This document shows positions 124 to 38,261 of a DNA stretch of 39,982 bases, one piece after another (the first letter of the stretch is position 1; the number at the start of each line of letters is the position of its first letter). The notes under the pieces were generated by a model. That model worked only from the letters and a program-made list of their open reading frames with translations. It was not told the DNA's origin and did not search any database. The DNA lies in contig JAADGO010000133.1 of the NCBI GenBank assembly GCA_013152355.1, forward strand, positions 1-39,982, written 5' to 3'. The DNA is from Chlorobiota bacterium. Its GTDB lineage: Bacteria > Bacteroidota > Bacteroidia > Bacteroidales > Prolixibacteraceae. The translations under genes and the position numbers were made by a program.

Positions 124-216
124 ATCTATTGTTATAAAACATAAGGGGGGCTCTTAAAAAATTATTTTTGTAATAAATAGTAATTTTTTGAGTCCCCTTT
201 AACTTTAAACAACTTC
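124..216. repeat. Degenerate palindromic repeat (family 1 end) with long hairpin
   Basis: The right end (197-216) reads CTTTAACTTTAAACAACTTC, the same terminal sequence as the full elements at 9732-9909 and 28516-28679. Inside it, 145-164 and 181-197 form a hairpin: GGGGGCTC, a TT bulge, then AAAAAATTA pairs with TAATTTTTTGAGTCCCC. The left arm outward from 143 resembles the complement of the right end but has drifted. It lies between the divergent partial gene at 1-101 and the peptidase gene. Confidence 0.55.
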
Positions 217-9731: not shown

Positions 9732-9909
9732 GAAGTTGTTTAAGGTCAAATTGAAAACCTGCGAGTAACATCTTGATACCATTGAACCCCAGCTAATTTT
9801 CCTTGCATCCCGAACACTCGGGATGCAAGGAAAATCGAGCTCCCCGAATGCTTGGGGCTGAAGATCAATCTGTCACTCTCGAAGATCCTATTTAATTTTA
9901 AACAACTTC
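9732..9909. repeat. Palindromic element family 1, copy A (MITE-like)
   Basis: Starts GAAGTTGTTTAAGG and ends TTTAATTTTAAACAACTTC, giving inverted ends that continue imperfectly for about 45 bases on each side. The centre has a perfect 18-base stem, ATTTTCCTTGCATCCCGA (9796-9813) with its complement at 9818-9835, and a loop of four bases (ACAC). About 90 percent of the left 73 bases match the copy at 28516. No open reading frame is inside. Confidence 0.75.
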
Positions 9910-20465: not shown

Positions 20466-20537
20466 ACGATAAAAAAATAAGTTGAAATAAAGGGGCTAAA
20501 TATTATTTTACTATCTTTCTCTCCCATTAAGCTTGGG

Positions 20538-20557
20538 GTTGTTTAAATTTAAACAAC
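20538..20557. repeat. Perfect 20-base palindrome, minimal family 1 element
   Basis: GTTGTTTAAA is followed at once by TTTAAACAAC. This equals two family 1 ends joined head to head with the middle missing; 20548-20560 also carries the full TTTAAACAACTTC end. It lies in the 214-base gap between the nuo operon and the secreted cluster. That gap otherwise contains only AT-rich sequence and a short GGAAGGCCTTTTCC near-palindrome. Confidence 0.55.
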
Positions 20558-20679
20558 TTCATATCCTGGTTTCTGATACCCATCCCGATTATTACTGATT
20601 CGGCTGCTTTCGGGAAGGCCTTTTCCTGGGTTGTAGCCTTTGGGATTTCAAAACTAACTACTAAACTAAACTAATAACT

Positions 20680-28407: not shown

Positions 28408-28515
28408 ATAAAAAAGAGGGGTATGCCTCATGAAACCTTTCTTTATATCAATATTTTCTTTATTATTCAACAAATTTTTAAAGTATCCTTATTGTGTAAT
28501 TTTAGGGGTTTTATT

Positions 28516-28679
28516 GAAGTTGTTTAAAGTCAAATTGAAAACCTGCGAGCAACATCTTGATTTCATTGGGCTTCAGCTAATTTTCCTTCCATAGCTTTGG
28601 CTATGCAAGAAAAATCGAGCCTTGCCACTGATAATCAATCTGTCACTCTCGAAAATCCACTTTAACTTTAAACAACTTC
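28516..28679. repeat. Palindromic element family 1, copy B (MITE-like)
   Basis: Starts GAAGTTGTTTAAAGTC and ends CTTTAACTTTAAACAACTTC. It shares about 90 percent of the left 73 bases and most of the right 47 with copy A at 9732. The central stem is ATTTTCCTTCCATAGC (28580-28595) against GCTATGCAAGAAAAAT (28600-28615), 14 of 16 paired. The apical stem differs from copy A on both arms. ATT flanks both ends, a possible three-base duplication. Confidence 0.75.
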
Positions 28680-28740
28680 ATTGCTACTTGTAGTGGAATG
28701 TTATTTTAAATTTCTATGTTGCATCTGTAATTTATATACG

Positions 28741-34601: not shown

Positions 34602-34616
34602 ATTTTAAACAACTTC
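34602..34616. repeat. Family 1 end sequence at the hutH stop codon
   Basis: ATTTTAAACAACTTC matches the right terminus of family 1 elements. Read on the minus strand it supplies the last four hutH codons (Glu-Val-Val-stop). A 15-base match could be chance, but the same end occurs five times in the window. Confidence 0.4.
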
Positions 34617-36110
34617 AATAAGCCTTCCTTTATCTAAAAATTCAATTGTTTCATTGATCCCTTTATACATTAAAGTATCCTCATCAATAAACCTTACTTT
34701 CAACCTGTATTGTGCAAGAAAGCCATCGAGGTATGCCGATGTTTTTTTAGGCTTCCTGAAATCCATTGCCTGGGCCGCATTGTATAATTCAATGGCTAGT
34801 ATTTTCTGGACATTTAATACAACTTTTAGAGCTTTTGTAGCTGCATTGCCTCCCATGCTTACATGGTCTTCCTGCTCATTTGACGAGGGTATGGAATCGA
34901 CTGAAGACGGTGTACACAATTGTTTATTCTGGCTTACAATTGAAGCCGCCGCATACTGCGGGATCATAAAACCTGAATTAAGCCCTGGGTTTGCTACCAG
35001 GAATTCAGGCAACCCCCTTTCGCCGGAAATAAGCCTGTAAGTACGCCTTTCAGAGATGCTTCCAAGTTCGGATACGGCAATTGCTAAGAAGTCAAGAGCC
35101 AAAGCCAGTGGCTCGCCATGGAAATTCCCCCCTGAAACAATTAAATCTTCATCGGGGAATACGGTTGGGTTATCGGTAACCGAGTTTATTTCTGTTTCAA
35201 TAATACCCGAAACATATTTTACCGTATCTTTTACTGCGCCGTGTACCTGTGGGATACAACGAAATGAGTACGGATCCTGGATGTGTTGCTTTTTTTGTGC
35301 AATAAGCTGGCTTCCCTTGAGTAAAAGCCTGAAATTGAATGCTGTTTGTGCCTGCCCTGCATGTGGGCGGATTTTTTGAATGTTTTCGAGGAAAGGCTCA
35401 ATTAACCCATCAAAACTATCCAATGACAATGCACCGATGATATCGGCGTATTTTACAATCCTGAAAGTCTTCAGTAACGTGTACACTCCATGGGCACTCA
35501 TAAACTGGGTGCCGTTTAATAAAGCTAACCCCTCCTTTGCCTCCAATTTTACAGGCTCCCACCCAAACCTCTTCATTACCTTTGAAGCATCCTGCTTTTC
35601 CCCTTCGAAATAAACTTCTCCTAAGCCCAATAGCGGCAAAAAAAGCATGGCTAACGGAGCAAGGTCTCCACTGGCGCCCAGTGACCCCTGTTCGCATACA
35701 ACAGGAATAATATTGTTGTTGAACAAATCGATTATTCGCTGGACTGTAACCAGTTGTACGGCAGAATTCCCTTTTGCAAGGGCATGGGCTTTTAAAAAGA
35801 GCATCAGCCGTATAACATCTGAAGGCACTTCGGGCCCAATGTTGCATGCATGCGAAACAATTAGGTTCTCCTGAAGCTTGCTTAAATCGGCATTGGATAT
35901 TTCGATGTCGTACAAAGCTCCAAATCCGGTGTTAATGCCATACATCGGCCCATCGGTTTTTGCAATTTTTTCATCCAGGTAATCTTTACTTTTCTGAATA
36001 AGCTTTTGGGATTCTTGCGACAACTCCAGTTTTATATTATTCTCAAGTATCTTTTCTATTAACTCAAAGGTTATATCGGCGGGGGATATATAATGAATTT
36101 TATTTTCCAT
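34605..36110 (-). CDS. hutH: Histidine ammonia-lyase
   Basis: 501 residues. The Ala-Ser-Gly at 146-148 (GSLGASGDLAPLA) cyclises to the MIO cofactor. Ser86-His87 in LIVSHACNIG are the residues that select histidine over phenylalanine or tyrosine in this family, and NGTQFMSAHG and NEQEDHVSMGG are also typical of histidine lyases. It converts histidine to urocanate and ammonia, the first step of histidine use. The other hut genes (hutU, hutI) are not in the window. The next gene on the same strand upstream is hisS. The start ATG at 36110 fits the family. Confidence 0.93.
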   Translation of the reverse strand: MENKIHYISPADITFELIEKILENNIKLELSQESQKLIQKSKDYLDEKIAKTDGPMYGINTGFGALYDIEISNADLSKLQENLIVSHACNIGPEVPSDVIRLMLFLKAHALAKGNSAVQLVTVQRIIDLFNNNIIPVVCEQGSLGASGDLAPLAMLFLPLLGLGEVYFEGEKQDASKVMKRFGWEPVKLEAKEGLALLNGTQFMSAHGVYTLLKTFRIVKYADIIGALSLDSFDGLIEPFLENIQKIRPHAGQAQTAFNFRLLLKGSQLIAQKKQHIQDPYSFRCIPQVHGAVKDTVKYVSGIIETEINSVTDNPTVFPDEDLIVSGGNFHGEPLALALDFLAIAVSELGSISERRTYRLISGERGLPEFLVANPGLNSGFMIPQYAAASIVSQNKQLCTPSSVDSIPSSNEQEDHVSMGGNAATKALKVVLNVQKILAIELYNAAQAMDFRKPKKTSAYLDGFLAQYRLKVRFIDEDTLMYKGINETIEFLDKGRLIEVV

Positions 36111-38101: not shown

Positions 38102-38261
38102 GAGACTGTTTAAATTTTATTTTTATGAATTATTATAGTGTTTTTTTTTGTCAGATAAAGCAATTTTGAGGCGAATACAACATTGTATTTAACGATAAAT
38201 TGCTAAAATATGACGGAAAAAGACGCATAATAAACGTAAAGGATAATTTTTAAACAGTCTC
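38102..38261. repeat. Palindromic element family 2, complete copy (160 bases)
   Basis: Begins GAGACTGTTTAAA (38102-38114) and ends TTTAAACAGTCTC (38249-38261), a perfect 13-base inverted pair. Inside, AGCAATTTT (near 38160) pairs with AAATTGCT (near 38200). It is AT-rich with no coding frame. Single ends of the same family are at 238-250 and 29749-29768. Confidence 0.7.

Follow-up and report, generated by a model that had tools for sequence, protein, structure and literature searches.

Among described elements of this kind, the closest Bacteroidota relatives that we found are the IS5-family MITEs of Porphyromonas gingivalis (MITE239, MITE464/PgRS, MITE700 and BrickBuilt; PMC4596501) and a Cardinium MITE from an IS982-family element (PMC9769881). 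The P. gingivalis elements resemble the repeat studied here in being non-coding and carrying IS5-family ends, but the present family has another end sequence, no minisatellite core and no parent IS detected in its genome, and its target-site duplications are a consistent 3 bp whereas those of BrickBuilt vary (PMC4596501). The Cardinium MITE is likewise IS-derived and the product of a recent, lineage-specific burst, although the parent is an IS of a different family, of which intact copies persist there (PMC9769881). The QMITEs of Coxiella burnetii are also short with inverted ends, and long stem-loops are predicted for their transcripts (PMC5896051; review PMC10969869); their ends are different, and their duplications span 7-9 bp versus 3 bp here.

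Covariation is usually taken to prove that an RNA structure is under selection, and the family described here constitutes a natural test of that inference. Template switching between the arms of an inverted repeat leads to arm homogenisation and spacer inversion (PMC8604942), and one proposal holds that it both gives rise to hairpins with compensatory changes and keeps them in being (PMC8794818). The arm homogenisation, multi-base two-sided changes and loop inversions of those cases recur here, in a many-copy mobile element that provides replicate hairpins within one genome rather than in RNA genes (PMC8794818) or yeast coding genes (PMC8604942).

Here, we examined a 39,982-nucleotide stretch of contig JAADGO010000133.1 (hereafter, the window) from the Chlorobiota bacterium assembly GCA_013152355.1. 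We consider it probable, at roughly 0.85, that a repeat with two full-length copies in the window is an IS5-derived MITE, orphaned in this genome, whose central hairpin covaries mainly through template switching. MITEs are a known kind of element, of which this family is an additional member. It clearly exemplifies a MITE at high copy number that has apparently persisted in a genome longer than its transposase, and its dozens of near-identical hairpins, most likely functionless, still covary significantly and show a loop inversion, as template switching predicts. We caution that covariation alone is insufficient to call palindromic mobile repeats RNA genes.

Copy number and structure of the repeat family

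The first-pass annotation had grouped the two copies at 9732-9909 and 28516-28679 as one repeat on the basis of shared ends and arms, and both were recovered at full length with those ends (Table 1). The two copies fold strongly relative to dinucleotide shuffles (z = -9.0 for the 9732 copy and -6.3 for the 28516 copy), hold no ORF of at least 80 aa, and lie upstream of nuoA and of a glutamine amidotransferase gene. The 28516 copy is flanked by a perfect duplication of its target site; no intact duplication surrounds the 9732 copy, where it is lost.

Table 1 Features of the repeat families in the window.
Feature	Position	Strand	Remarks
Solo family end	204..216	-	No partner end found; window start 204 bp off
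Full-length MITE copy, 178-bp subfamily	9732..9909	+	Flanks AAT/TAC
Left terminal inverted repeat, GAAGTTGTTTAAG	9732..9744	+	1 mismatch vs family end
Central hairpin H1, 9732 copy	9796..9835	+	Perfect 18-bp stem, 9796-9813 / 9818-9835
H1 loop ACAC, 9732 copy	9814-9817		Exact inversion of GTGT in 10 other copies
Second short hairpin H2, CCCCGA-ATGC-TTGGGG	9842..9857	+	Confined to 178-bp subfamily
Right terminal inverted repeat	9897..9909	-	GAAGTTGTTTAAA on minus strand
Mini-copy of 26 bp, two ends alone	20535..20560	-	GGGGTTGTTTAAA/TTTAAACAACTTC
Target-site duplication ATT, left copy	28513..28515	+	
Full-length MITE copy, 164-bp subfamily	28516..28679	+	
Central hairpin H1, 28516 copy	28580..28615	+	Tip CATAGC-TTTG-GCTATG above C-C mismatch in stem
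Target-site duplication ATT, right copy	28680..28682	+	
Second family, ends GAGACTGTTTAAA	29755-29767 and 38102-38261		
Solo family end	34604..34616	-	Gives stop codon of aromatic amino-acid lyase gene 34605-36110 (minus strand)

The first-pass annotation had proposed a genome-wide search for the ends and had named few further copies, or uncompensated stem changes, as grounds for refutation; the check, when run, did not refute the observation. The 13-bp end GAAGTTGTTTAAA has 206 exact occurrences in the 3.38-Mb genome, versus 0 occurrences of its reversed, non-complemented pattern, which served as the control. Full-length copies number about 35-45; a search with a 164-bp query recovered such copies dispersed over many contigs, several of which end within the element, as is expected of a collapsed repeat. 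Full copies are approximately 160-180 bp long, AT-rich and non-coding, with inverted ends GAAGTTGTTTAAAGTTAAA, and they fall into two subfamilies that are each common to many copies. The subfamily of approximately 164 bp, to which the 28516 copy belongs, has the tip CATAGC-TTTG-GCTATG, and that of approximately 178 bp, represented by the 9732 copy, has the tip CATCCCGA-GTGT-TCGGGATG plus the second small hairpin.

Perfect 3-bp target-site duplications were found in 30 of the 43 full copies with readable flanks, and another 11/43 match at two of three positions; comparing flanks between unrelated copies gave an expected full match of 11%. The duplicated triplets are AT-rich (ATT, AAT, TAT, ATA, CAT, ACA, GAT and others). 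Shorter copies of 26, 38, 46, 71, 80, 121 and 124 bp also have both ends and matching flanks, and 26-bp copies consisting of the two ends joined keep matching 3-bp flanks at three loci (L011, L104 and L028). Copies are intergenic and occur in every orientation to their neighbours, with 27 co-directional, 9 divergent and 4 convergent contexts according to approximate ORF calls. At the orthologous glutamine amidotransferase locus of a same-genus genome (G002), no element lies upstream of the gene, and the intergenic DNA there is too diverged to align; a search of three same-genus genomes gave no match to nuoA.

Relationship to IS5-family elements

The repeat displays the sequence features of a MITE: it is short and lacks a transposase gene, has terminal inverted repeats and target-site duplications, is present in many dispersed copies, and shares its ends with an autonomous IS, the last of these being seen in three other genomes (G002, G094 and G122) and not in the window's own. 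G002 holds an intact 891-bp IS (L085:1383-2273) with ends GAAGTTGTTTAAAGT/GAAGTTGTCAAAAGT, the target-site duplication TTC/TTC and a transposase gene whose product matches PF13340 and DDE_Tnp domains and, above its cut-off, the NCBIfam 'IS5 family transposase' model. Full-length homologs with both kinds of end and 78-89% identity are present in other members of the same bacterial family, G094 and G122, flanked by 3-bp duplications wherever the flanks could be read; the one-contig genome G122 (G122:C1) has 11 full-length copies, ten of which score alike. Three homologs passed the cut-off of this model (NF033580). Several MITE copies in G002 retain the asymmetric ends of the IS (GTCAAAAG on the left, GTTTAAAG on the right) and thereby connect the two elements. 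The named metagenome-assembled genomes with the element are those of a Draconibacterium sp. and a Bacteroidetes bacterium. A 3-bp duplication fits the ISL2 and IS1031 groups of the IS5 family alike.

Searches of the window's own genome at the protein, family and DNA levels detected no such transposase. The IS DNA matched there only over short stretches of end length or at chance level, and among the first 100 end matches listed no paired ends lay 1-3 kb apart as a full IS would require. Since a multicopy IS can drop out during assembly or binning, its absence from this assembly (estimated 98.4% complete, 242 contigs) is less than proven. Because its ends and 3-bp duplications are those of the relatives' IS and no transposase was detected here, the element is, judged by sequence, a MITE of an IS5-family IS, apparently orphaned in this genome. 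This agrees with the earlier proposal that the element is non-autonomous and would be moved by an enzyme encoded elsewhere. We propose that such an IS, approximately 890 bp long, gave rise to the family by internal deletion, that its transposase would have spread the family through cross-mobilisation, and that loss of the IS may then have orphaned it.

A palindromic, intergenic, high-copy repeat with short inner palindromes (CCCGAnnnnTCGGG) could also belong to the REP/RAYT type, in which a single-strand Y1 (IS200/IS605-like) transposase spreads palindromes by way of the hairpin. However, the 3-bp target duplications are clear and the inverted ends are shared with DDE-type IS5-family elements, and REP elements are not known to have either. 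Contradicted by the target duplications, this explanation was rejected as very improbable.

Covariation in the central hairpin

The first-pass annotation had observed that the top of the central stem differs between the two window copies on both strands. Its letters for the 9732 copy (GCATCCCGA/TCGGGATGC) are exact; those for the 28516 copy (CCATAGC/GCTATGC) are one pair too long, as the real stem there is CATAGC/GCTATG, underlain by a C-C mismatch. These two copies differ mostly because they come from separate inherited subfamilies, with no independent compensatory event, and the pair is therefore weak evidence of covariation, which is real across the family. Across 40 copies drawn from several genomes, two-sided changes affect 12 of the 32 pairs tested (shuffle mean 3.6), amounting to 25 two-sided cells versus 5.7 in shuffles, and none of 500 shuffles reached either value. 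The signal disappears when the partner is slid by 1-3 columns. Pairing is thus kept while sequence changes, as had been claimed, and the changes are compensated well beyond expectation. Examples include CATAGC/GCTATG replaced by CGTAGC/GCTACG in one genome (G012), a T/A pair at columns 100/135 replaced by C/G in a single copy (L105), and a Draconibacterium copy (L139) in which the stem is perfect over 15 bp with other letters.

Covariation is concentrated beside the 4-base loop and fades in the outer arms, which lie approximately 130 bases from each other. On a copy tree built from approximately 145 columns outside the stem, which is poorly resolved so that 'same branch' can conceal intermediates, H1 partners changed on the same branch 15 times (deranged partners: mean 3.5, maximum 7), whereas the outer arms did so 4 times versus 1.6, a value reached by 18/200 shuffles and hence no significant excess. 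The inherited C-C mismatch has been resolved variously among copies, to G-C, C-G, T-A or A-T. Loops occur in inverted form in both hairpins (ACAC/GTGT in H1 and ATGC/GCAT in H2).

These observations bear on whether the hairpin is maintained by selection as RNA or as single-stranded DNA, with the MITE as the vehicle and the compensatory changes as a sign of function, be it in stabilising mRNA, in termination, in regulating adjacent genes or in being recognised when the element transposes. The strong folds of both window copies and their positions upstream of genes are consistent with such a role, and selection on the hairpin would also produce two-sided changes in excess of shuffles. However, the window has no matches to Rfam families, the gene context of the copies is inconsistent, and changes in the outer helix are mostly uncompensated. 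Non-Watson-Crick stem states, counted by hand, are of G-U type in 11 columns and of A-C type in 17 columns without a clear strand bias, so that no clear single-strand RNA signature emerges, and selection does not predict loop inversion. Nor is there a convincing terminator at the copies: no intrinsic terminator, with a T run after a GC-rich stem, was found at 28516, and the 9732 copy has one weak minus-strand match (5 pairs). We regard this explanation as unlikely, if worth serious consideration, and selection as the cause of the covariation alone as slightly less likely still. That the central hairpin functions as RNA or extruded DNA, the orphan MITE having become a dispersed regulatory element under selection after transposase loss, appears decidedly improbable; if true, its users would be the host or the transposition machinery.

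Recombination or gene conversion between oppositely oriented MITE copies could also give rise to two-sided changes. Each genome does hold many similar copies, and hybrids exist, such as a copy combining a 178-type H1 tip with a 164-type second segment (L070). Yet many two-sided states are private to single copies (L105, L071, L139 and L138), which leaves them without a donor among the sampled copies, and we consider such exchange improbable as the source of the covariation.

We favour, as somewhat the more probable cause, a mutational copying process over selection or exchange between copies, given the same-branch changes of both arms near the loop, the varied resolution of the C-C mismatch, the loop inversions and the lack of a significant excess in the outer arms. 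Given the limited resolution of the tree and the non-independence of the copies, we infer this cause from the pattern of changes. In such a process, known as quasi-palindrome correction, a replicating polymerase would switch template within the palindrome and copy one arm from the other, which may account for most two-sided changes; the same switch would invert loops, as in the 9732 copy, and a separate RNA function would be unnecessary. The first-pass annotation had left the choice between selection and a copying process open; the evidence favours the latter, and nothing specific supports RNA selection.

Solo ends and other repeats

Of 120 GAAGTTGTTTAAA ends sampled, chiefly from the first 100 matches listed, 59 lack a partner end within 200 bp. 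At these solo ends homology mostly stops 16-32 bp in, and the outer triplet is AT-rich like the target duplications. They resemble genuine insertion ends, the rest of which would have been lost. In two cases an end supplies the stop codon of a host gene (...Glu-Val-Val-stop), namely at the lyase gene in the window (34604-34616) and at an ORF in G002 (L085:1383-1394).

A second repeat family, with ends GAGACTGTTTAAA, gave 69 exact end matches genome-wide (control: 0), and its ends form pairs approximately 150-180 bp apart. Its end is similar to that of the IS5-family ISPg4, GAGACTGTTGCA (PMC4596501). Solo ends were also considered as hybrids with this family, which was rejected: a GAGACTGTTTAAA partner lies within 250 bp in 7/59 cases versus 2 in an upstream control.

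Some copies of the first family carry a tandemly duplicated end (L025 from position 1332 onward (C25), L054 and L101; e.g., CTTC-ATAACTTTAAACAACTTC), possibly through nested insertion or slippage. Extra small palindromes are present within single copies at L139:2121-2297 and L069:1501-1685 (ATCCCGATGTACATCGGGAT; CTGTCTGCCGACAAAGCAGGCA), and look as if hairpins had been gained as modules.
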